Notes under the pieces: model-generated
Database searches by the model: none
What the model was told of the DNA's origin: nothing
Seen by the model: only the letters and a program-made list of their open reading frames with translations
In this document: one piece after another, positions 6,433 through 20,765 of the stretch
Position numbering within the stretch: position 1 is the first letter of the stretch
Layout: each line of letters begins with the position of its first letter
Position numbers and translations under genes: made by a program
Source: a virus
Length of the DNA stretch: 20,765 bases
IMG/VR virus record: IMGVR_UViG_3300021138_000207
Coordinates: 1 to 20,765 of that record
Direction: 5' to 3' (one strand)

Positions 6433-6876
6433 TCAACCCTGCGCGAATAGTTTTGCCTCGTTTAGCCTACGTGTTGTCAATCCTGCCAACACGCGCCCAC
6501 CTGCTTTGTTCCATTTTTCAAATTCATCATGCGCTGCTTCAAAATTGCCTTGATTGATTAACTTAAGCAAGGTGGAGTGCTGTAAGTTACCTGCGCCACA
6601 ATTAAAGCAAAAATCTACTAAGGCATCATATTGGTGCTGTGTTAATTCTACCGTGACAAATGTTTTTACCATCTTTTCAGCATGCTGCAAATCGTGTTTT
6701 AAGCGATCCACTGCTTGTTCCTCTGTGATGGTCATGCCTTGAATCACATCAGCACCAGTGCTTCCAAAACCAATCGTCCAAATACCCGCTGGACATTGAT
6801 ACGAAGTGAGTTTGCAACCTTCAGAGAGTTTAACTAGATCAATCCCATCGTGATCAAATTGTAAATTCTCATTCAT
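6433..6876 (-). CDS. Endolysin, GH24 lysozyme (T4/P21 type)
   Basis: The 147-aa product is a phage lysozyme that hydrolyses the beta-1,4 bond of peptidoglycan. The catalytic triad pattern E-8x-(D/C)-5x-T is present as Glu19, Cys28 and Thr34 in LSEGCKLTSYQCPAGIWTIG. Cys in place of the middle Asp is found in many members. GFGSTG follows, and later LTQHQYDALVDFCFNCGAGN and GLTTRRLNEAKLF complete the family pattern. There is no signal peptide or signal-arrest-release helix, so export must depend on the holin. The first eight bases overlap the end of the degenerate paralogue upstream, and the two clearly arose by duplication. Confidence 0.95.
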   Translation of the reverse strand: MNENLQFDHDGIDLVKLSEGCKLTSYQCPAGIWTIGFGSTGADVIQGMTITEEQAVDRLKHDLQHAEKMVKTFVTVELTQHQYDALVDFCFNCGAGNLQHSTLLKLINQGNFEAAHDEFEKWNKAGGRVLAGLTTRRLNEAKLFAQG

Positions 6877-7399
6877 TTACTTGCTCGGCGGTTGCTTGAT
6901 CAACAAGTTCACTACTGTCTGCTTTAATTGTTTCAACCACTGGAGTATTAGATTCATTGTTTTTTACCTCAAAAAAAGGTTGATTTTGCAACTTTTGTGC
7001 AATTAATCCTTGCATTCTTCGTTTACCGTTTTTAATCCAATTTGCATATATGACGTTTGCATCTTGACGCAAACCTGCATTTATTAAAGACGCTATGGAA
7101 TGAGCGCAAAAATCATGGTGGCCCATGTTTAAACACATATCCATCAGTTGATTAAATTGTGCTTGGGTTAAATCAACTTGTACCAGCAATCGAATGGTTG
7201 CCTCTGCATGACGTATATCATGTTCTAAACGTGCTTTAGCCTGGGCTATGTCAAACTGCATTTCTGGAACAATATCTGGCCCGCTGCTGTTATAACCAAT
7301 TTTCCATTCAGCGCCATCTTGATAGCTACCTAGCTTTCTGCATTCATCTAGCTTAGTAAAGTTAATGGTGGCACGATCAAATTTTAATTGTTCATTCAT
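6869..7399 (-). CDS. Catalytically degenerate GH24 lysozyme paralogue
   Basis: The 176-aa product aligns along its first ~145 residues with the endolysin encoded just downstream: MNEQLKFD against MNENLQFD, KLDECRKLGSYQ against KLSEGCKLTSYQ, RLEHDIRHAEATIR against RLKHDLQHAEKMVK, VDLTQAQFNQLMDMC against VELTQHQYDALVDFC. Glu19 remains, the middle residue aligns as Asp28, but one residue is deleted after it and catalytic Thr is replaced by Lys33. GFG becomes GYN, GAGN becomes GHHD and the GLTTRR box becomes GLIAQK. A roughly 35-residue acidic C-terminal tail (from about 142) is added. It is therefore likely inactive as a lysozyme. It might bind peptidoglycan, inhibit or chaperone the active enzyme, or be a virion component, since it sits directly between fibre and lysis genes. 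Confidence 0.85.
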   Translation of the reverse strand: MNEQLKFDRATINFTKLDECRKLGSYQDGAEWKIGYNSSGPDIVPEMQFDIAQAKARLEHDIRHAEATIRLLVQVDLTQAQFNQLMDMCLNMGHHDFCAHSIASLINAGLRQDANVIYANWIKNGKRRMQGLIAQKLQNQPFFEVKNNESNTPVVETIKADSSELVDQATAEQVNE

Positions 7400-7401
7400 A
7401 A

Positions 7402-9084
7402 TTAAGTCTTAATAATGAAGTAGATAGCTAAATAAGGGCTAATAGTGCTAATTGCTGTGCCCGATCCAGTATTGCCAATTGTGGTGCTGGTTGTTGTACC
7501 AGTTGTCGTTGCGGTATTGGTTGTTGTTGCTGTCGTGGTATTGGTTGTAGTTGCGGTAGATAATGTTAAAGATGTGGTTGTGCTGGTGGCAGTGCTTAAT
7601 GCCAAAGTGGTATTTGTTGTTGTGTGGGTGCTTAATGCCAATGAAGTGCTGGTATTAGTGGTTGTTCCCAAACCTTGCAGTTGCGTATTGGTGGTTGTAA
7701 ACACCGAACCCGAAGGCGTACCACCAGTTGCCCCTACGATTGAAATGCCCGTTTGAGCATTGTTAATTGTGATTAAACCTTCTTGCACTGTGCTGCCACC
7801 GGCTAGTGCTGAACCGCCACCACTCTTGGCTAAAATGATTCCACGCCCTGCTTGCTGCTGATTTGTCCAAGTATGGAAGTGACCAGGATCACTCACACTA
7901 TGAACGTGAGTGGGCAATGCATTACCCGAAAAAGTGGAAGATGAAGAAGATGCAGCCGATCCAGTGGTGTTTGAACTTGATGTAGATATTGCGCTACCAG
8001 TGGTGGTGCTCACCGATGTAGAAGTTGCAGTTCCAGTAGGAGTAGAAACTGATGTTGAAGTTGCTGTGCCAGTGGGTGTTGATGTTGAAGTTGAATTGCT
8101 GACTGAATTAGATGTGCTTATTGAATTACTGGTTGAACTTGATGTTGATACCGCTGAATGATTATGCGATGGCAAGTTCGCTGTGGATAAAGTTGTGCTT
8201 GCACTACCGCCCGTTGCCGCAGCACCATAAATACCACCCGCACCAATCGGCATCAGATTGGTATAGTTGGGCACATTAAATGTTGAACTGCCATCACCTG
8301 TGCCAAAAGTTAAACCAATGATGCTAAACAACGCACTGTAGGCTGAACGGGATAATGCTTGCCCATTACATAACACCCAGCCATTTGGTGCTGTAGCCGT
8401 AGGCCACATTGTTATACTGCCCGTTGGCATAGAGTAAGTTGAAGGCAACGGACTAGTTGCCGGATTCAATAAAATGAATGCCGGATAATTGTTGATCAAA
8501 TTATATGCAAAGGTGAGGGTTGCTCCCGCGGTAATATCGCCGGTTGCCAGCGGTACACCATTGCCTTTAAATATTAAAAATGGGCCAATACCCGTTGTGC
8601 CTAACACCAAAGTCATGGTGGGCGAATTGGTAATATTATTAAAGTCCGCTGTTAGCGTAAATGTCATGCCAACATTCGCAACAGTCAATGTGCTGATTAG
8701 CGTAGCGGTAATTGCATCTGACGTACCGCTTACCGCAGCATAGCCATAGGTGTTTTGCTGTGATTGTTCCACCGGCAAAAAGGCAGTTAATGTGCCACTC
8801 GTCATCAAGTTGGCAACATAATCGCCCGCTGTCCATCCCTGTGCGGTTGTGCCTTCTTGTCCACGCACCACTGTAAGAGTGTCATTTGTGCGATTGGTAC
8901 ACAACATAATTTCATGCTGTAGTTTGGTAGCAGCATCAGTAAGGCTAACTTTAAATGCCTGACCTGCCGTTGGGCTTGGGAAAATGTTACCTGTTCCAGC
9001 AGCTACAGAAATCGTTGTAGTTGTGGAATTAATGGATGCCAGCAACGTGCTCGATGCATTATTGGATGCAATGATGATAGACAT
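7402..9084 (-). CDS. Tail fibre protein with phage tail collar domain
   Basis: The 560-aa protein has three parts. Residues 1-212 are homologous to the whole upstream 216-aa protein (AAGTGNIFPSPTAGQAF, LCTNRTNDTLTVVRGQEGTT). Residues 217-282 form a tail collar domain (MPTGSITMWPTATAPNGWVL, DGSSTFNVPNYTNLMPIGAG). The C-terminal part starts with LPSHNHS and contains THVHS and GHFHTW, His-x-His motifs that in T4 gp12-type fibres bind metal along the trimer axis, and ends ISPYLAIYFIIKT, typical of collar proteins. Two Ser/Thr-rich tandem-repeat tracts interrupt it (310-388 and 474-537, period 12). It is probably a trimeric receptor-binding or short tail fibre. Its repeat tracts have biased composition unlike the neighbours. 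Confidence 0.88.
   Translation of the reverse strand: MSIIIASNNASSTLLASINSTTTTISVAAGTGNIFPSPTAGQAFKVSLTDAATKLQHEIMLCTNRTNDTLTVVRGQEGTTAQGWTAGDYVANLMTSGTLTAFLPVEQSQQNTYGYAAVSGTSDAITATLISTLTVANVGMTFTLTADFNNITNSPTMTLVLGTTGIGPFLIFKGNGVPLATGDITAGATLTFAYNLINNYPAFILLNPATSPLPSTYSMPTGSITMWPTATAPNGWVLCNGQALSRSAYSALFSIIGLTFGTGDGSSTFNVPNYTNLMPIGAGGIYGAAATGGSASTTLSTANLPSHNHSAVSTSSSTSNSISTSNSVSNSTSTSTPTGTATSTSVSTPTGTATSTSVSTTTGSAISTSSSNTTGSAASSSSSTFSGNALPTHVHSVSDPGHFHTWTNQQQAGRGIILAKSGGGSALAGGSTVQEGLITINNAQTGISIVGATGGTPSGSVFTTTNTQLQGLGTTTNTSTSLALSTHTTTNTTLALSTATSTTTSLTLSTATTTNTTTATTTNTATTTGTTTSTTIGNTGSGTAISTISPYLAIYFIIKT
7474..7665. repeat. Thr-rich tandem repeat within the collar fibre gene
   Basis: Residues 474-537 of the collar protein consist of imperfect 12-residue (36-bp) units of Thr/Ser with recurring L(A/T)LST: TTTNTSTSLALS, THTTTNTTLALS, TATSTTTSLTLS, TATTTNTTTATT, TNTATTTGTTTS. 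The phase is kept in frame. Confidence 0.7.
7903..8082. repeat. Ser/Thr-rich 36-bp tandem repeat within the collar fibre gene
   Basis: Residues 335-394 are five 12-residue units: STPTGTATSTSV twice, STTTGSAISTSS, SNTTGSAASSSS and STFSGNALPTHV. The two identical peptide units differ at several synonymous DNA positions, so the protein repeat is maintained by selection or is old. Confidence 0.75.
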
Positions 9085-11984: not shown

Positions 11985-12359
11985 TTATGCAGCCGGTGCA
12001 GCGTTTAATGCAGCCATTTGCTCAGCGGTCAATCCTGCGGTTTGATCGGCAGATAAAACAGCAGCCTGGTCTGAATTCATCATCAACAATTGATCTGCAC
12101 TCATTGCAGCCAATTGTTCAGGCGATAATGCTGACACTGCTTCAGTAGACATAGTGGGCACTTGCTCACTAGGAATAGCAGCAACTTGCTCAGTGGTCAT
12201 GGCTTGCACGGTTTCTGTTTCACTCACAACAGGCACTTGTGGCTGTGCAATGGTTTTGATGTTGTTGATCACATCATAAACATCTTTGGCCTTGCATTCG
12301 CCTAACGCTAACAATGCTGCATTGACCAACTCAATGGGTAAGCTAATATTAATAGACAT
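11985..12359 (-). CDS. Octapeptide-repeat protein, 124 aa
   Basis: The N-terminal part (ISLPIELVNAALLALGECKA, then KDVYDVINNIKTIAQ) looks like a short phage domain with LP.ELVNA.L..LG...Y..V...I..I, which I have seen in unassigned tail-region proteins. After a linker, residues 53-124 are nine 8-residue units of the form x-(M/L)-(S/T)-x-(E/D)-Q-x-x, such as ALSPEQLA, AMSADQLL, VLSADQTA and GLTAEQMA. The units are likely short helices or turns stacked as a rod or binding strip. The ribosome binding site GAGGA precedes the ATG. It is flanked by terminators on both sides, so it may be a separate transcript with its own promoter, not identified here. Confidence 0.75.
   Translation of the reverse strand: MSINISLPIELVNAALLALGECKAKDVYDVINNIKTIAQPQVPVVSETETVQAMTTEQVAAIPSEQVPTMSTEAVSALSPEQLAAMSADQLLMMNSDQAAVLSADQTAGLTAEQMAALNAAPAA
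11988..12203. repeat. 24-bp tandem repeat encoding octapeptides
   Basis: Nine in-frame 24-bp units code for residues 53-124 of the 124-aa protein. The consensus peptide is A-L-S-x-E-Q-x-A, and the last unit is degenerate (ALNAAPAA). The DNA copies have drifted but the frame and period are exact. Confidence 0.8.
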
Positions 12360-12410: not shown

Positions 12411-12437
12411 TAAAAAAACTGATATTTTAAGTCAGTT
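12411..12437 (-). terminator. Probable terminator after the 140-aa structural gene
   Basis: On the minus strand AACTGA-N9-TCAGTT (12437-12417) is followed by a T-run complementary to the A at 12412-12418. The stem is short and AT-rich, but the T-tract is strong. It overlaps the stop codon of the gene ending at 12436. Confidence 0.5.
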
Positions 12438-12858
12438 AAATTTGTGCGGTTGTAGCTGCACCTATCATGCCAGGCATTGCAACCCATTTCTTTGTCTTTT
12501 CATCCCAAGAATATGAGCCGCCATCAGTAGGCATAGGAGTGGGTGCTTGCCATTGCCAAGTTGGGCCTGCAATCGTCCAAGAAGGAAAAGGTTGGGGTGA
12601 ATAAAACACATCATTGGTAGGATCGTAGGTGTAGCCAATACCAGCATAGTTGCCGCGCAATGCCGAGCCGCCTGAAGTATGCACTCCACCAATGGTGTTA
12701 TAGCTAGTCTTTATCCATGTGCCACCCAAAAGGCGCTCACAAAATGCCACGCCGATAGATTCTTTTTCTACGCCATTGGCATCTGAAGAATCTTTAGTAT
12801 CAACAACAATAACTTGAATCACCTTGTTGTCAGAATCAATTTGTGCAAAATGTGCCAT
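12436..12858 (-). CDS. Conserved phage virion-associated protein, 140 aa
   Basis: The sequence starts MAHFAQIDSDNKVIQVIVVD and contains NGVEKESIGVAFCERLLGGT, RGNYAGIGYTYD and WQWQAPTPMPTDGGSYSWDE. I recognise this pattern from proteins shared by many cyanophage and marine phage tail regions, where it is annotated as hypothetical or structural. It has a mostly beta character with many Trp and Gly. Exact function is unknown. Its neighbour is the 2OG oxygenase, with which such genes are commonly found. AGGGGC lies upstream of the ATG, and a terminator-like hairpin overlaps its stop. Confidence 0.75.
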   Translation of the reverse strand: MAHFAQIDSDNKVIQVIVVDTKDSSDANGVEKESIGVAFCERLLGGTWIKTSYNTIGGVHTSGGSALRGNYAGIGYTYDPTNDVFYSPQPFPSWTIAGPTWQWQAPTPMPTDGGSYSWDEKTKKWVAMPGMIGAATTAQI

Positions 12859-12859
12859 C

Positions 12860-13465
12860 TTATGCCCCTAAATGTAAACCTGTTAAATCAAGATCGTTTC
12901 CAATATAACCTTTTAGAAACGTGTTAAAAGAAATGCTAATGCGTGTTTCATCTGTTTCCACCGTTTGAACCATGTGGGTTAAATGCGATGGAAACAATAC
13001 TAATTGTCCTGTTGTTGCTGGCAACCACCAAGAATCAGAATTGTACAAATTAAAGGTTTCAGCAGGTAACTTTATTTGGCTGTAGCCATCTTTGTAAAAA
13101 TAGATTTTATCTATATCTTTCTGCGCTTGAACATAAAACACCCCACTGATAAAACTATTAGGGTGCTGGTGCTTATGATGCCATTGACCTTTATCTGTGA
13201 AGTTTGCCCATGATTGCGTGATATAGGGCGCAACATCAAACTTTGGTGAATACACTTCTTTATAATATTCAGCCAATGATTCTTCACAAAACCGTGCAAT
13301 TTCTGCAAGTTCTGCGGTTTCAAACAAAGTGTTATTCACACTTGTTTTATTCCCATCATTGTTGCGCTGTTCTAAATTCTTTATAAAATTTAATTCAACT
13401 TCTGTTAAATCTGATCCAAATTCAAAATAGCTTACTGCGGTGGGAAAAAGGTTGTGGGTTATCAT
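12860..13465 (-). CDS. 2OG-Fe(II) oxygenase superfamily protein
   Basis: The 201-aa product matches the phage-type 2-oxoglutarate/iron dioxygenases (TIGR02466/2OG-FeII_Oxy_5-like), which hydroxylate an unknown substrate. The iron-binding region is QWHHKHQHPNSFISGVFYVQ (94-113), with His99 and His101 as candidate ligands, and FPSHLTHMV (158-166) with the distal His164. Arg175 in ETRISISFN (173-181) would bind the 2-oxoglutarate carboxylate. In phages these enzymes are common among tail and structural genes and may modify host or virion molecules, but no substrate is known. It overlaps the upstream 84-aa gene by four bases. Confidence 0.85.
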   Translation of the reverse strand: MITHNLFPTAVSYFEFGSDLTEVELNFIKNLEQRNNDGNKTSVNNTLFETAELAEIARFCEESLAEYYKEVYSPKFDVAPYITQSWANFTDKGQWHHKHQHPNSFISGVFYVQAQKDIDKIYFYKDGYSQIKLPAETFNLYNSDSWWLPATTGQLVLFPSHLTHMVQTVETDETRISISFNTFLKGYIGNDLDLTGLHLGA

Positions 13466-13716
13466 GCCACCGCCTTTTCAAAATCCTCTTCTTGCTGACG
13501 TAGTGCTTTTAACTGTTCTGCTGTCCATAATGTTGGGATTGAATCCTCAAACGCTTTGATCTTCTCCATCACGTCATTGACTTCTTCAACGCTAGGAACA
13601 GGGCGTTCATCATCCCATTTGGTAAATTGATGACCGTTATATTCCCATTTTGCGCCTGGGCGTAAAAGTTCAACTGCAACATTGATACCGTACAGTTTAT
13701 AAAGTTTGCTACTCAC
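13462..13716 (-). CDS. Conserved phage protein beside the oxygenase, GTG start, 84 aa
   Basis: The frame begins at GTG 13716, chosen because AAGGAG lies six bases upstream. The nearer ATG at 13720 is in a frame that stops after three codons. The product has LRPGAKWEYNGHQFTKWDDE (18-37), RPVPSVEEVNDVMEKIKAFE (38-57) and WTAEQLKALRQQEEDFEKAV. This set resembles a small protein of cyanophage-like tail clusters; function unknown. It is coupled to the oxygenase gene by a 4-base overlap. Secondary structure is a beta-hairpin followed by helices. Confidence 0.75.
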   Translation of the reverse strand: MSSKLYKLYGINVAVELLRPGAKWEYNGHQFTKWDDERPVPSVEEVNDVMEKIKAFEDSIPTLWTAEQLKALRQQEEDFEKAVA

Positions 13717-13726
13717 GCATTTCTCC

Positions 13727-16132
13727 TTAGTTATGGAATTTGAGAATTACTATACCACTACCACCAGATGCACCTGCTAGTCCACCTGCTGCATTCGTTC
13801 CTCCACCACCTCCACCACCAGTATTTGGACTGCCTGCAACGGCTGCTGATCCTAATCCTCCATTACCGCCTCCACCTGAGCCACCTGGTGCGGTTGATGG
13901 AGCGGATGAATTACCGCCTCCACCACCTCCCCCTGCGTATGGCGTGCTTACGCCGGATAATGATGAAGATGATCCGTTTCCACCGGAACCGCCGTTGCTA
14001 TTCGTTACAGCAGCACCTCCAACTACTGATGCACCTCCACCACCACCGCCAGCACCAGATGCTCCATTACCGCCATTGTTACCTTGTGATGGCGTTGTTG
14101 AAGGTGTGTTACCTGAACCACCAGAACCTGCCGCAGCATTGTAACCACTTCCTCCACCACCGGAACCGCCGTTTCCTCCAGATTGTCCTGATAGTGTTGC
14201 ACCTCCACCACCACCCGCTGCACTTATTGTGCTAAAACTTGATGCATTTCCTGCGCCACCTGTTGTACTTGCTGAACCGCCATTACCACCTGCGCCAACA
14301 ACAACAGTTAATGTGCCTCCACTTGATACAGGGAAATTGGTTCCAGCTAAAAATCCTCCTGCACCACCTCCACCACCATTACTTTGACCAGAAACACCAC
14401 CTGCACCACCTGCACCACCTGCAACTACTAGATAATCAACAAGTGTGAATCCTTGTGGAACGGTAACCATTGTTGTGCCGGTTGCTGTGATGATTTGTGT
14501 GGTGTTTAGCTGAATGATGACAATACCAGAGCCGCCTGCGCCGCCTTTGACCTCACTTGCTGATCCTCCACCGCCTCCACCGCCTCCAGTATTGACAGTT
14601 CCAGAACCCCCTGGGCTACCGCCGTTAGGTGAATTACAGCCATTTCCACCACCACCGCTGCCTCCTGTTCCACCAGTTCCGGTTCCAATATATGCACCAC
14701 CACCACCACCACCTGCATACGTTACAGATGAACCAGAAATTGTAGATGTTGAACCAGCACCACCATTTCCAGGTGTTGTGCTGTTTGGAGAATTAGAACC
14801 TACTGCGCTTGCTCCACCACCACCCCCGCTGGGATATGGTGATGAAGTAAAACCGCCATTTGTTCCCCCGTTATTGCCTTGTGAAGGCGTAGTTGACGGG
14901 GTGTTACCAGAACCTCCAGCAGAAGTTCCCCCTCCGTTTGCTGCTCCACCACCTCCAGAACCACCATTACCACCGATTTGGGTTCCACCGGCTTGACCTC
15001 CATTACCTCCACCTGCCGCTGTGATTGTACTGAAAGTTGAGCTACCACCTTGTGATGCACCTGTTCCACTGCCGAAATCACACCACCCTGCCGTACCACC
15101 CGCTCCTACGGTCACGGTATATGACGTTCCGGCAGTAACGGCTAAATTTGTGCCTGTTAAATATCCACCTGCTCCACCGCCACCGGATGCCGCACCGCCA
15201 CCGCCTCCAACTACTAAATAAGATGCAGATGAATAGCCAGTGGGCACGGTGAATGAGCCAGAGCCTGTGAAATTGTATGTGGGAGTTGTGCGAGTGTAGG
15301 AGAGGATGACAACACCGCTGCCGCCTGCACCGCCATTTCCTCCAGTACCTCCACCTCCACCACCTCCACCACCTGTATTTGTAGTTCCAGCAGTTCCTGT
15401 TTGACCTGGGTTATATCCACCGTTACCCCCAACACCTGAACCTCCTGGTGCTAAACCCCCTTGAGAACCACCACCACCACCACCACCAGAATAAAAAACA
15501 GTTGTACCTGATATTGTAGATGATAAACCTGTTCCACCTGCGCCACCTTGATTAGTAGGGCTACCAAATGGGTCTCCCGAACCGCCCGCAGAATAAGCCC
15601 CGCCACCGCCACCACCACCAACTTTTCCTATTCCTGTTCCTCCATTTGTTCCTTGAGCATTAGGGGTTGTGGCAGGAGTATTTCCTAAACCGTTAGCACT
15701 TGAACTTGCGCCTGAGCCACCACCACCACTTCCTCCGTTCTGTCCTGCTAAGGATGAATTTGTACCTCCACCTCCACCGCCTGTTGCCGTGACTGTACTA
15801 AATATTGAATTTCCACCGTTTCCACCTAATGCTGCGGGCGATGTAGTTCCAGCAATACCACCTGCTCCAACAGTTATGGTATAGGTTGTTCCTGCCGTAA
15901 CAGATAAAGAATTGCCTTGAAGAAAACCTCCTGCCCCGCCACCGCCACCATTTGAACTACCAGAAATTCCACCACCACCGCCACCACCACCAGCAACCAC
16001 TAAATAATTAACAGACGTAACACCGGTGGGTGCTGTCCAATTACTTGTGGCATTAAATGTTTCAATAATGGTAATGCCAGTTGAACCAGCAGCAACCAAT
16101 GAACCAAGAAGAATCTGTAAAATTCCACTCAT
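13727..16132 (-). CDS. Glycine-rich adhesin-like tail protein with three domain copies
   Basis: The 801-aa protein starts with a short hydrophobic segment (MSGILQILLGSLVAAGSTGI), which may be an attachment segment. Then come three homologous glycine-rich copies (about 22-278, 284-541, 546-800). Each opens with a beta-strand like APTGVTSVNYLVVAGGGGGG, has a conserved GGAGG(F/Y)L.G and an YT(I/V)TVGAGG or similar, long Gly tracts and a closing GGSG(I/V)VIL or similar. Such Gly-rich sheets resemble the polyglycine-II sandwiches of phage adhesins such as S16 gp38, so a distal host-receptor role is likely. The plus strand is full of Pro-rich reading frames that are merely antisense to GGN codons. 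The gene overlaps the upstream fibre gene by an ATGA junction. Confidence 0.8.
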   Translation of the reverse strand: MSGILQILLGSLVAAGSTGITIIETFNATSNWTAPTGVTSVNYLVVAGGGGGGGGISGSSNGGGGGAGGFLQGNSLSVTAGTTYTITVGAGGIAGTTSPAALGGNGGNSIFSTVTATGGGGGGTNSSLAGQNGGSGGGGSGASSSANGLGNTPATTPNAQGTNGGTGIGKVGGGGGGGAYSAGGSGDPFGSPTNQGGAGGTGLSSTISGTTVFYSGGGGGGGSQGGLAPGGSGVGGNGGYNPGQTGTAGTTNTGGGGGGGGGTGGNGGAGGSGVVILSYTRTTPTYNFTGSGSFTVPTGYSSASYLVVGGGGGAASGGGGAGGYLTGTNLAVTAGTSYTVTVGAGGTAGWCDFGSGTGASQGGSSTFSTITAAGGGNGGQAGGTQIGGNGGSGGGGAANGGGTSAGGSGNTPSTTPSQGNNGGTNGGFTSSPYPSGGGGGASAVGSNSPNSTTPGNGGAGSTSTISGSSVTYAGGGGGGAYIGTGTGGTGGSGGGGNGCNSPNGGSPGGSGTVNTGGGGGGGGSASEVKGGAGGSGIVIIQLNTTQIITATGTTMVTVPQGFTLVDYLVVAGGAGGAGGVSGQSNGGGGGAGGFLAGTNFPVSSGGTLTVVVGAGGNGGSASTTGGAGNASSFSTISAAGGGGGATLSGQSGGNGGSGGGGSGYNAAAGSGGSGNTPSTTPSQGNNGGNGASGAGGGGGGASVVGGAAVTNSNGGSGGNGSSSSLSGVSTPYAGGGGGGGNSSAPSTAPGGSGGGGNGGLGSAAVAGSPNTGGGGGGGTNAAGGLAGASGGSGIVILKFHN
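13733..16069. repeat. Three ~770-bp repeats within the Gly-rich adhesin gene
   Basis: Copy 1 spans about 15299-16069, copy 2 about 14510-15283 and copy 3 about 13733-14497, defined by the shared start (VPTG/APTG...YLVV.GG) and end (GGSG.VIL). Copies are related at protein level but clearly diverged, particularly in the inserts between Gly tracts. Confidence 0.75.
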
Positions 16133-16980
16133 GTTAAGGCAACTCCACTAATGATCCAGGTGGTGCTTAAAATTTTGGTTGCAGTTGCAACGCCATATTG
16201 TGCCAAAGTGCGGCTACCAGTCGAACCGGTTGAAGCCAAATAAAGCGTGTCTGAAGTAATCGCGATGGTCACCGAAGCGGTTGCCATATTAATAAAGGTA
16301 ATTGCGGTTCCAATTGGATAAGCCACACTTGCATTTGCAGGAATGGTATAGGTTGCAGCCGATGCACCAGATGCGTGATAAATCTGTTTACCAGAATCAG
16401 ATAGCACCAACGTGTATGAACCGGTTTGTGCATTCTGCGGAATGTTTAGGAAACCAACAGAGTTAGTTCCATCAGCGGTACAGTTTGTTAAGTTACCGCT
16501 TGCAGGGGTTCCCAATACAGGAGTAGTCAACGATGGGCTGGTTGCCAATACCACTGATCCACTACCTGTGGATGAAGTCAGCGAAGGTGCTTGAGCCGCT
16601 GATCCAGTACCTGTTGAGGTATAAAAATTAGGTGTGGTTGCTGTGTTGCCAGCTAGAAATACGGTAGTTGATGCTCCTGATTGGTAAGGAACCGATCCAG
16701 TTGCGCCACCAGAAATATTGGTTGCGTTGGTAGCGGAAACGGCTGCCCACGAAGCCGTTGTGCCGTTACTCGTCAACACATAACCCGATGTGCCAATACC
16801 TAATCGAGTAGAACTATTCGTTCCATTACCGATAATTAAATCACCAGTAGAAGTAACAGGCGATAAGGCATTAAACGCTGCGGTTGCAGTGATCGCACCT
16901 GTTCCACCATTGGTTAAGGCTAATACGCCCGATGTACTTGCACCTTCAGCTAAAATAGATAGATTACGTGGGATAGTCAT
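16129..16980 (-). CDS. Tail fibre protein with one NGGTG module and a conserved tip
   Basis: The 283-aa product starts MTIPRNLSILAEGASTSG and carries one copy of the module ALTNGGTGAITATAAFNALS-P...GYVLTSNGTTASW (21-79), which is repeated many times in the larger fibre upstream. The C-terminal half (YTLVLSDSGKQIYH, YTIPANASVAYPIGTAITFI, TLYLASTGSTGSRTLAQYGV, TTWIISGVALT) is a well-known tail-fibre tip module. It is probably a fibre that forms a trimer and presents the tip to the host. An upstream GGAG at about eight bases from ATG supports the start. It is separated by 56 bases from the fibre upstream and overlaps the adhesin gene. Confidence 0.85.
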   Translation of the reverse strand: MTIPRNLSILAEGASTSGVLALTNGGTGAITATAAFNALSPVTSTGDLIIGNGTNSSTRLGIGTSGYVLTSNGTTASWAAVSATNATNISGGATGSVPYQSGASTTVFLAGNTATTPNFYTSTGTGSAAQAPSLTSSTGSGSVVLATSPSLTTPVLGTPASGNLTNCTADGTNSVGFLNIPQNAQTGSYTLVLSDSGKQIYHASGASAATYTIPANASVAYPIGTAITFINMATASVTIAITSDTLYLASTGSTGSRTLAQYGVATATKILSTTWIISGVALT

Positions 16981-17036: not shown

Positions 17037-20000
17037 TTAAAATTGAATCTGCGAAGCCAATACGGTATAGGTTGCATTGGCGGTTTTTGTTACCACATAC
17101 GTGTACTGATCAATCTGATTTGCGTGACCGGTTGATGGTGCAGAACCACCTTGCCAATAGGTTGTCACACCCGTTGACGTTCCATCAATCGTCAATGTTC
17201 CATTCATATAGTAAGGCGTTGATCCCATCGTAGCCCAAACCGTCATGGTGATGGTTTGACCTGCGGATAAGAAACTGTTTAATGTGGTTGTACTGTTAAA
17301 CGCAATGTTTTGCGTCCAGTTAGCCGTTGCATTTCCAGTAAACAATTGTGAAACGCCATTTGCTAAATAAATCGTTGCATTACCGTTTGCCGTTCCACTT
17401 GCAGGTACATACGTGGTTTGCACGTTTGTTGCCACGTTAATGACGTTAAATGCAACCACTTCAACAATATCACCCGTTGCCGCACCCACTGCCAATACAA
17501 CAGTTGTACCTGTTGTTGCAGTGTAATCCGAGCCATTCAAGAACACACCATTCAAGAAAACTTGAATATAACCAACGGTGTAACTTACAGTGAATGACGT
17601 TTGACCTGATGTTGCGGTAAAACTGGTACGGGTATAAGCCGTTGGAGTGCTGGTTGCATTAATGGTGACTGCACCCGTTCCACCCGCAGGTGAAATGGTG
17701 ATGTTGGTTCCAGCCACAATTTGCGTGACAGTGCTTGACCATGCCGGTACACCCGATACGACACTAAGAACTTGACCAGTAGAACCAATGCCTAAACGTG
17801 CAGCAGTGTTTGTGCCGGATTCATAAATAATGTCACCGGTGGTTGTCATAGGATTAAGCGCATTAAATGCCGCTGCTGCCGTTGTCTGACCTGTACCACC
17901 ATAACTAATACCAAGCGTGCCATAAGCAGGTGCCGCACCTGATCCACCAGACAATAAAGGCTGACCAGATGTGCCCGATGCCGTTGCTGCGGGTGCAGCA
18001 CCCGCTCCACCACCATACACCACGCCATATTGAGTAAGTGCAGCCGATGATGCCCAAGCGCTTGATGAACTAAAATAAACAATACCGCCTGATGTGCCCG
18101 CAACGGTCAATGCTGGTGTGGTTGATGCCGTTGCTACACTAATTAAGCCACCAGTAAATGATACTGATGTAACGGTTCCCGCATTATTTGCTGCCCAAGA
18201 TGCTGTGGTTCCATTGGATGTAAGAACATATCCATTAGTACCAATAGCCAATCTTGAAGCGGTGTTAACACCTGTACCTATGATTAAATCACCGGTTGAT
18301 GTGATTGGGCTTAATGCATTAAATCCTGCACTTGCTGTTGTAGCACCAGTTCCACCATTTGCAATCGCAAGCGTTCCACCTAGTACAACCGCGCCGGTTG
18401 TAGCCGAATTGGGTGTTAAACCTGTAGTCCCCGCACTAAACGATGACACACCACTGGATGTTGCTGCTTGCCACGATGCAGTGGTTCCATTAGAAGTCAG
18501 CACATAACCTGTTGTGCCAATACCCAAGCGTGTAGCGGAATTGCTGCCATTACCGATAATTAGGTCACCGGTATTTGCGATGGGAGATAAAGCATTAAAT
18601 GCGGCTGTTGATGTTGTTGCACCCGTGCCGCCATAGCTGATACCTAATGTGCCAAAGGCCGGTGAACTTGTACCGCCAGACAATAAAGGCTGACCGGTTG
18701 TGCCTGGGCTTGTGAATCCTGTAGCTCCTGATGCAGATTGATATACAACTGCACCGGCAGTTCCACCCACTAAATTATTGGCACTGGTGCTGCTAATCGT
18801 GATTGCGCTATAAGCAATTGTTTCAACAATGTCACCCGTTGAGGCGCCTACCGCCAATACGACCGAAGTACCATTGGTTGCTGTGTAATCAGAACCGTTA
18901 AGAAATACACCGTTTAAGAATACTTCAACATATCCAACAGTATAAGAAACCGTGAAAGTGGTTTGACCTGAAGTTGCCGTAAAGCTCGTTCGTGTATACG
19001 TTGCGGTAGGTACTGTGGCATTGATCGTGACTGCACCCGTACCACCTGACGGCGAAACGGTAATGTTAGTACCCGCTATGATCTGAGTAACTGCACCTGT
19101 TGGATTTGCCCATGCAGGCACGCCAGATACAACTGTTAATACTTGCCCTGTGGTTCCAACAGGTAAACGTGAAGCAGTATTGGTGGCTGATTCGTAAATC
19201 AAATCACCAGTAGTGGTCATGGGATTTAAAGCGTTAAATGCTGCCGCTGCCGTTGTAGTACCCGTTCCACCCGCTGCAATTCCAAGCGTTCCATAGAGGG
19301 GCGAAGAACTAGCACCACCAGATAGCAATGCTTGTCCTGCGGTTCCTGTGGTTGTAGCCTGGGGTGCTGATCCTGCACCACCGCCATACATCACACCATA
19401 CTGCGTTAGAACACCAGATGATGCCCATGCATTTGATGATGAAAAGAACACCACGCCACCAGAGGTTCCAGCAACAGTTAATGCAGGTGTTGTGGTTGGT
19501 GTTGCTACAGAAATTAAACCACCTGAAAATGAAACTGAGGTTACCGTTCCTTGAACTGCATCAGCCCACGAAGGAATGCTGCCCACAACCGTTAGAACTT
19601 GGCCTGCGGTTCCTAATGCTAAACGCGCAGCAACCCCTGCGGAAGATTCATAAATAATGTCTCCCGCTGTAGTCATTGGGTTTAGTGCATTAAATGCGGC
19701 TGCTGCGGTAGTGGCTCCTGTACCGCCATTCGCAATATTTAATGTACCACTTAAGGTAATACTGCCGGTAGAACCCGTTGATGGGCTAAATCCGGTGGTT
19801 CCTGCGCTAAATGACGTTACACCACCAGATGCAGCAGCCTGCCAAGAAGCTGTCGTGCCATCAGAGGTCAAAACGTAACCGCTTGAACCAATACCTAATC
19901 GTGTTGCACTGTTAGTGCCATTACCAAGAATCAAGTCACCGGTTGAAGTGATCGGTGATAAAGCGTTAAAGCCCGCACTTTTACTGGTAGCACCTGTACC

Positions 20001-20765
20001 GCCTGCTGTAATCGCAAGCGTGCCCCAGGTTGGGCTACCAGTTCCACCAGATAACAATGCTTGTCCTGATGTACCCACACCTGTAAAGCCAGTTGAATTG
20101 GCTCCTGTTTGGTATAAAAGCTCACCAGAAGCACCACCAACAATATTATCGGCATTTGTATTTACAACTGTTTGCGTATTGTACGCAACGGTTTCAACTA
20201 TATCGCCCGCAGTACAACCCACTGCCAATTGCATGGATGTGCCATTGGTTGCGGTGTAATCGCTGCCATTTAAGAACACACCGTTTAAGAATACTTCCAA
20301 ATATCCAACGGTATATACCACTGAGAATGTGGTTTGCCCTGCTGAAGCGGTGAAACTTGTGCGCGTGTATGCTGCATTCAATCCAGCAGCATTAATGGTC
20401 ACAACACCTGTGCCGCCTGAGGGCGAGATGGTGACGTTTGTGCCCGCAACAATTTGCGTAACACCACCCGTTGATGCTTGCCAGGATGCGGTTGTGCCAT
20501 TTGAGGTTAATACATAACCATTTGAACCAATTGCTAAACGCCCAGCAGTATTGGTTCCAGTACCTAAAATTAAATCGCCCGCAGTAGTGATGGGTGACAA
20601 AGCATTAAATGCAGCCGATGCAGTTGATGCTCCAGTACCTCCATTTGCAATTCCAACACTGCCCCATGATGGCGCACTGCCACCATTAGAAACTAATACT
20701 TGGCCTGTTGTTCCTGCTGCGGTCACCGCAATTGCTGATCCAGTGCCATAAGCCACACCGCCCAA
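17037..20765 (-). CDS. Large repetitive tail fibre protein, 5' end outside the window
   Basis: The frame is open to the right window edge (1242 residues visible), so the N-terminus is missing. The visible part is a chain of ~58-residue modules of the form (I/L)xxGGTGxTTAxAAFNALxP(I/M)T..GD(L/I)I...(Y/Q)VLT, with GGTG at residues 42, 255, 347, 499, 712, 803 and 957. A second module, YTRTSFTA..GQT.F.V.YTV, then EVFLNGVFLNGSDYTAT, appears at 133, 590 and 1044. The order of modules repeats every ~455 residues. The last ~125 residues (1118-1242) form a different, non-repeated tip with WTQNIAF and TMTVWATMGSTPYYMNGT. It is a probable trimeric long fibre or spike shaft. A frameshift is not seen. Confidence 0.88.
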   Translation of the reverse strand: MGGVAYGTGSAIAVTAAGTTGQVLVSNGGSAPSWGSVGIANGGTGASTASAAFNALSPITTAGDLILGTGTNTAGRLAIGSNGYVLTSNGTTASWQASTGGVTQIVAGTNVTISPSGGTGVVTINAAGLNAAYTRTSFTASAGQTTFSVVYTVGYLEVFLNGVFLNGSDYTATNGTSMQLAVGCTAGDIVETVAYNTQTVVNTNADNIVGGASGELLYQTGANSTGFTGVGTSGQALLSGGTGSPTWGTLAITAGGTGATSKSAGFNALSPITSTGDLILGNGTNSATRLGIGSSGYVLTSDGTTASWQAAASGGVTSFSAGTTGFSPSTGSTGSITLSGTLNIANGGTGATTAAAAFNALNPMTTAGDIIYESSAGVAARLALGTAGQVLTVVGSIPSWADAVQGTVTSVSFSGGLISVATPTTTPALTVAGTSGGVVFFSSSNAWASSGVLTQYGVMYGGGAGSAPQATTTGTAGQALLSGGASSSPLYGTLGIAAGGTGTTTAAAAFNALNPMTTTGDLIYESATNTASRLPVGTTGQVLTVVSGVPAWANPTGAVTQIIAGTNITVSPSGGTGAVTINATVPTATYTRTSFTATSGQTTFTVSYTVGYVEVFLNGVFLNGSDYTATNGTSVVLAVGASTGDIVETIAYSAITISSTSANNLVGGTAGAVVYQSASGATGFTSPGTTGQPLLSGGTSSPAFGTLGISYGGTGATTSTAAFNALSPIANTGDLIIGNGSNSATRLGIGTTGYVLTSNGTTASWQAATSSGVSSFSAGTTGLTPNSATTGAVVLGGTLAIANGGTGATTASAGFNALSPITSTGDLIIGTGVNTASRLAIGTNGYVLTSNGTTASWAANNAGTVTSVSFTGGLISVATASTTPALTVAGTSGGIVYFSSSSAWASSAALTQYGVVYGGGAGAAPAATASGTSGQPLLSGGSGAAPAYGTLGISYGGTGQTTAAAAFNALNPMTTTGDIIYESGTNTAARLGIGSTGQVLSVVSGVPAWSSTVTQIVAGTNITISPAGGTGAVTINATSTPTAYTRTSFTATSGQTSFTVSYTVGYIQVFLNGVFLNGSDYTATTGTTVVLAVGAATGDIVEVVAFNVINVATNVQTTYVPASGTANGNATIYLANGVSQLFTGNATANWTQNIAFNSTTTLNSFLSAGQTITMTVWATMGSTPYYMNGTLTIDGTSTGVTTYWQGGSAPSTGHANQIDQYTYVVTKTANATYTVLASQIQF
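17421..20648. repeat. ~1.37-kb super-repeat in the long fibre gene
   Basis: Equivalent residues recur at 457- and 454-residue spacing: GGTG 42/499/957, 255/712 and 347/803, YTRTSF 133/590/1044. In DNA one matching site lies at 20286, 18915 and 17553, spaced 1371 and 1362 bp. Two full copies (about 20648-19278, 19277-17904) and a partial third (17903-17421) are visible. Confidence 0.85.

Follow-up and report, generated by a model that had tools for sequence, protein, structure and literature searches.

The glycine-rich gene in this window, by which we mean the whole 20,765-base virus record that was analyzed, encodes a known kind of phage adhesin, and the class assigned to it in an earlier note on this DNA was right. 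The most interesting part is the exchange of domain cores between fixed ends, which was found in relatives of the gene. The adhesin gene, its parts, and its neighbors are as follows.

13727-16132, minus strand: adhesin gene, 801 aa, with a leader and three TNF-like/glycine-rich (PF21722) domains (ORF call and Pfam)
16070-16132, minus strand: hydrophobic 21-residue leader of the MSGI type, proposed to dock on the upstream fiber (leaders of relatives; upstream fiber gene in 63/63)
15290-16069, minus strand: copy 1, residues 22-281 (Pfam and copy alignment)
14492-15289, minus strand: copy 2, residues 282-547 (Pfam and copy alignment)
13730-14491, minus strand: copy 3, residues 548-801, of which 549-801 are the predicted structure, pLDDT 95.9 (copy alignment and prediction)
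13462-13716, minus strand: 84-aa protein (phrog_21526, with a weak likeness to XkdW) that may serve the glycine-rich domains as partner or chaperone
12860-13465, minus strand: 2OG-Fe(II) oxygenase (PF13759, phrog_81), next in the gene block
12436-12858, minus strand: 140-aa protein (phrog_7759), same conserved block
16129-16980, minus strand: tail-fiber-like protein, 283 aa, relatives of whose C-terminal domain precede MSGI-type adhesins (profile comparison)
17037-20765, minus strand: long fiber-like protein that runs off the end of the window and carries the repeat type also present in 16129-16980

The domain identity was computed directly. Pfam PF21722 (Gly_rich_2) matched three stretches of the 801-aa ORF by hmmscan (E 1.3e-70, 238.3 bits compared to a curated cut-off of 24.3), which places the protein in this family and bears out the earlier reading of three tandem glycine-rich copies in one chain. 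The accompanying estimate by eye of ~40% Gly was right about the richness in glycine, but the measured values are slightly lower, with 37% for the whole chain and 38.5%, 36.5%, and 37.4% for copies 1, 2, and 3, which are ~260, 266, and 254 aa long. The copies can be aligned end to end and share the non-Gly anchors YLVV, NTP-TP, and IVIL, indicating that they are truly homologous beyond mere composition. Their cores have 50-54% mutual identity, and the best identities to copies from other phages are 0.55-0.59. Since the mutual identity is no higher than that to other phages' copies, a recent duplication is excluded. NCBIfam gave no match for the adhesin, and searches by sequence for a solved relative, with the single protein and with a 120-row profile, returned only chance-level matches. 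A tblastn search of phage records with the adhesin also gave no match; the low-complexity filter is likely responsible and, thus, this result is no evidence of absence. Opposite-strand ORFs within the gene were regarded as by-products of the Gly codons.

Copy 3 (residues 549-801) was predicted with pLDDT 95.9 and pTM 0.91 from an alignment of 120 sequences, namely copy 3 and 119 others, of which two came from the window and 117 from relatives' loci, the latter drawn from 158 non-redundant copies. The prediction of the full chain from 11 sequences was poor (pLDDT 58.5, pTM 0.42). The best solved matches to the copy 3 model by Foldseek were Bxb1 tail-tip chains and the Pam3 fiber, followed by ALK/LTK. 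With VIA-align, the model matched the Pam3 fiber 7ypx_A with Z 16.5 (183 of 253 residues aligned, 2.5 Å), the Bxb1 tail tip 9d93_Qb with Z 16.0 over 181 residues, and ALK/LTK with Z 6.6-8.3. The structural match to a TNF-like/glycine-rich fold as in Pam3 gp24 covers most of the predicted domain. The copy 3 model and its solved matches support the compact glycine-rich adhesin-type fold that had been proposed. Disorder or a collagen-like fold, named in the same note as the contrary outcome, is unsupported because the model is confident and matches the Pam3 and Bxb1 folds. Also, 237 predicted viral proteins in BFVD match the model at E 0.001 or better and, therefore, the domain is widespread. S16 gp38 had been named as the known example, but the best matches are the Pam3 gp24 domain and the Bxb1 tail-tip chain. 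S16 gp38 (6F45) was absent among the fold matches listed, which neither proves nor excludes a polyglycine-II fold.

Several known systems can be compared with the adhesin. The Pam3 gp24 tail fiber (PDB 7ypx, 7yfw) likewise has a TNF-like beta-sandwich with long glycine-rich loops, and its glycine-rich domain contains 39% Gly according to PMC9608196. It is a homotrimer with one domain after a long helix and a 162-residue chaperone. The window adhesin instead joins three domains in a single chain behind a short hydrophobic leader, and its neighbor is an 84-aa protein. The Bxb1 tail-tip chain (9d93 Qa/Qb) is similar over its 181 aligned residues, but it belongs to the tail tip of a mycobacteriophage siphovirus. 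The S16/PP01 gp38 fiber-tip adhesin also has a glycine-rich lattice with variable loops at the fiber tip, and in PP01 the loops on the polyglycine lattice contact OmpC, as described in PMC12892980. It differs in having one domain, built as a beta-helix plus polyglycine-II sandwich. The TNF-like plus glycine-rich (TG) domain of ALK/LTK is alike in its general fold, but it is the ligand-binding region of animal receptor kinases, and the likeness is one of fold with no claim of sequence membership. Tandem PF21722 proteins of uncultured phages belong to the same domain family. One of them, BFVD entry A0A6J5SA97, has a similar length (808 aa) and 52% identity over one copy, and that of DSL-LC04 (561 aa) has two copies.

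The window's tail genes include baseplate J-like, tail collar, and fiber-like proteins, and the stop of the fiber-like gene at 16129-16980 overlaps the adhesin start (ATGA). The gene upstream was classified with a profile of the C-terminal part of 16129-16980. A fiber C-terminal-domain gene was found directly upstream in 63/63 distinct genes with an MSGI-type leader and readable upstream sequence, a count that most likely includes the window since it was in the input. Such a gene was upstream in 0/55 with a GIW-type leader and 5/67 with other leaders; all these counts exclude genes that run off the contig start or have <800 bases before the first copy. The leader type tracks the upstream fiber gene, and the two together suggest, by analogy, a fiber tip like that of gp37-gp38. 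The gp38 gene of S16/PP01 likewise lies behind the fiber gene.

On the other side, the 84-aa gene starts ten bases past the adhesin. Gene order was read directly from the loci, and the 84-aa family stood behind a glycine-rich gene in 104/104 readable distinct places, with five more too close to the contig start. When loci were fetched only through the 84-aa family, using the 80 most similar of 594 candidates, a set that does not reach far relatives, the figure was 66/66 (71 places, five unreadable). Seen from the adhesin, the 84-aa gene was next in 132 and absent in 23 of the 155 readable genes that had no further glycine-rich gene behind them. The search for a chaperone-like partner suggested in the earlier note thus gave a candidate directly downstream, but no match to a tail-fiber-assembly family was found among 33 members of the 84-aa family, the best being a weak match to XkdW (3/33 members, best E 0.0002). 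The 84-aa protein probably helps the glycine-rich domains to fold or assemble.

The oxygenase follows in 56/59 and 36/38 readable places in two overlapping locus sets. Thirteen phage records matched the 84-aa protein, and six of these were examined for gene order. DSL-LC04 has two copies and then the same three genes in the same order as the window. Five cyanomyoviruses have one copy ~3 kb upstream of an 84-aa-like gene, so these two genes are not adjacent there, and the oxygenase and 140-aa-like genes lie in the same block. In most relatives, as in the cyanomyoviruses, the oxygenase gene (12860-13465, minus strand) is linked to the genes for the adhesin and the 84-aa protein. We considered hydroxylation of the conserved NTP/PSQG motif by the oxygenase and rejected it. 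The motif occurred in 29/41 copies without the oxygenase and 84-aa gene compared to 176/254 with both, by a pattern that was too narrow in both groups (variants such as PSQGS were missed). Since it is equally common with or without the oxygenase, the co-occurrence lends no support to this idea.

The number of copies was counted directly in 181 complete distinct ORFs (at least 200 aa, >15% Gly, window included) from loci fetched by similarity to the adhesins or the 84-aa family, which are not random samples. One copy was found in 22, two in 134, three in 18, and four in 7. An earlier count with fewer loci gave 19, 111, 12, and 4 of 146. Two copies are far commoner than three and four also occur and, therefore, three is no rule. 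The special role once suggested for the triplication is unsupported in that form, and the triple copy is one state of a fluid copy number. Also, several glycine-rich genes with one to four copies each were seen side by side in one phage (L002, L009, L024, L032, L054, and others).

Exchange of cores between positions was seen in the relatives. The comparison covered 338 copies from the 181 ORFs, with the core defined as profile columns 28-240 and the N-terminal strand as the first 20 columns, and all the data on shuffling come from metagenome contigs. At a core identity of at least 0.75 there were 55 pairs, 33 with the same position label and 22 with different labels, which are not mutually independent since several share a member. 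The N-terminal strand was less alike than the core by at least 0.15 in 18/22 different-position pairs compared to 4/33 same-position pairs. First/last pairs had a mean identity of 0.84 in the core and 0.51 in the first strand, and the values for last/last pairs were 0.90 and 0.90. A smaller earlier set of 21 same-position and 11 different-position pairs gave the same picture. The clearest case is copy 1 of 4 in L008 and copy 2 of 4 in L034, which are 100% identical in core DNA and 58% identical in the ends. L034 and L058 have two cores in common at exchanged positions (4 and 2, 1 and 3), and some pairs link different genes, such as copy 2 of 4 in L185 and the second copy of a two-copy gene in L008. 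This mosaic, computed directly from the aligned copies, is read as recombination of cores (cassette shuffling) inside position-specific ends in these relatives.

Assembly chimeras were considered as a source of the mosaic. They are disfavored since they would not yield the 65-95% identity in core DNA that was found for 21 of the 22 cross-position pairs. The L008 arrangement also recurs on two more contigs (L041, L174), with unchanged match figures. A chimeric origin keeps some probability for the single 100% pair (L008/L034). First and last copies were classified correctly in 188/192 cases with the ends and in 140/192 after removing them, suggesting that the positional signal resides mainly in the ends. 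Separate deep lineages of first and last copies, strong with the ends and weak without them, were rejected. For window copy 2 the classifiers disagree, with first copies as its neighbors in the tree and a last type by the end-weighted profile. The best identity of any core in the window is 0.59, which leaves these cores without a close partner and, therefore, we infer shuffling for the window from the relatives in which it was seen. We found no account in the literature of PF21722 copies shuffling between positions, including under the Pfam name, within a coverage of subscription papers that was thin.

The differing inserts between the Gly tracts that the earlier note pointed out are borne out. 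Eight runs of high-entropy columns, picked by eye from the entropy table, are flanked by conserved Gly or strand blocks, which fits loop tips. Hypervariability by selection was not seen. In 18 independent close copy pairs, many of which join copies at different positions and so blur the test, amino-acid differences amounted to 10.5% and dN/dS to 0.16 in the variable blocks compared to 10.0% and 0.13 for the rest. Indels were scarcer in the variable blocks, with 5 events in 1776 residues compared to 23 in 2775 for the rest. Therefore, neither dN/dS nor indels in these pairs showed positive selection or excess change in the variable blocks.

The likely explanation as a whole is a fiber-tip receptor-binding protein with a docking leader, TNF-like copies, exchangeable cores, and an 84-aa helper, in which the tip location and receptor binding are what we infer from the leader, fold, and neighboring genes. 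The hydrophobic leader would dock on the C-terminal end of the upstream-encoded fiber, like gp38 on gp37 in T-even-like phages. Each copy would fold as a TNF-like beta-sandwich, with its long glycine-rich loops stacked into a lattice and the variable tips facing the host surface. The terminal strands would be particular to each position along the chain and make up the junctions between copies, and the loop-bearing core would be exchangeable, having apparently moved between positions, genes, and phages in related phages. The 84-aa protein from the next gene would aid folding or assembly of the glycine-rich domain.

Other arrangements of the copies were weighed against this explanation. A serious contender, only just short of probable, is a multivalent or multispecific bouquet, in which the copies point outward independently and putatively bind host glycans or proteins, either shared or differing from copy to copy. 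The three cores are only 50-54% identical with differing loop sequences, and copy number is fluid, both of which fit such an arrangement. The copies of one chain could also pack round a three-fold axis as a pseudo-trimer, mimicking the homotrimer of one-copy fibers such as Pam3 gp24. Among solved folds with a described assembly, the closest is trimeric (PMC9608196), linkers in relatives are mostly ~4-12 residues, and strands of neighboring copies are ~2 residues apart in the low-confidence full-chain model. However, two copies are far commoner (134/181), four occur (7/181), and the full-chain pTM is only 0.42, which makes the pseudo-trimer unlikely. We consider it similarly improbable that the protein is a non-specific brush, a sticky glycine-rich decoration for loose adhesion without receptor specificity, as proposed for some siphophage brush domains. 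The Bxb1 tail-tip chain is among the two best fold matches, and PMC13243795 discusses brush or polyglycine-rich domains as antireceptors that encounter lipid-rich walls. The conserved leader-fiber arrangement, the partner gene, and the core exchange suggest a selected binding role instead, although none of them proves specificity.

The receptor-binding explanation can be taken further, tentatively and with some doubt, to a combinatorial adhesin. One to four TNF-like/glycine-rich domains would have terminal strands as fixed position-specific sockets and loop-bearing cores as interchangeable cassettes that move between positions, neighboring genes, and phages, so that the tip shows changing specificities, while the leader is matched to the fiber and all of these chains share a dedicated 84-aa partner. 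Glycine-rich fiber tips set host range in well-studied phages. If several domains per chain do have only their cores swapped between fixed sockets, this would be a simple natural system of combinatorial host recognition in aquatic phages, and the position-specific ends would reveal the natural cutting points of recombination. With the two genes so tightly paired, a chaperone or partner role of the 84-aa protein is directly testable.

Other features of the window were observed. The tail collar protein (7402-9084, minus strand) has a long Ser/Thr-rich repetitive stretch, and a protein with ALTTAQ-like repeats (PF20080) is encoded at 11985-12359 (minus strand) within the tail gene block. Two neighboring lysozyme-like proteins of similar sequence are encoded at 6433-6876 and 6869-7399 (minus strand), and the one at 6869-7399 presumably lost part of the usual motif, as judged by eye. 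Close similarity at the DNA level was found for one part of the window only, 67-524, with 82.6% identity to an annotated cytosine-specific methyltransferase gene in two Manatee Spring phage records.
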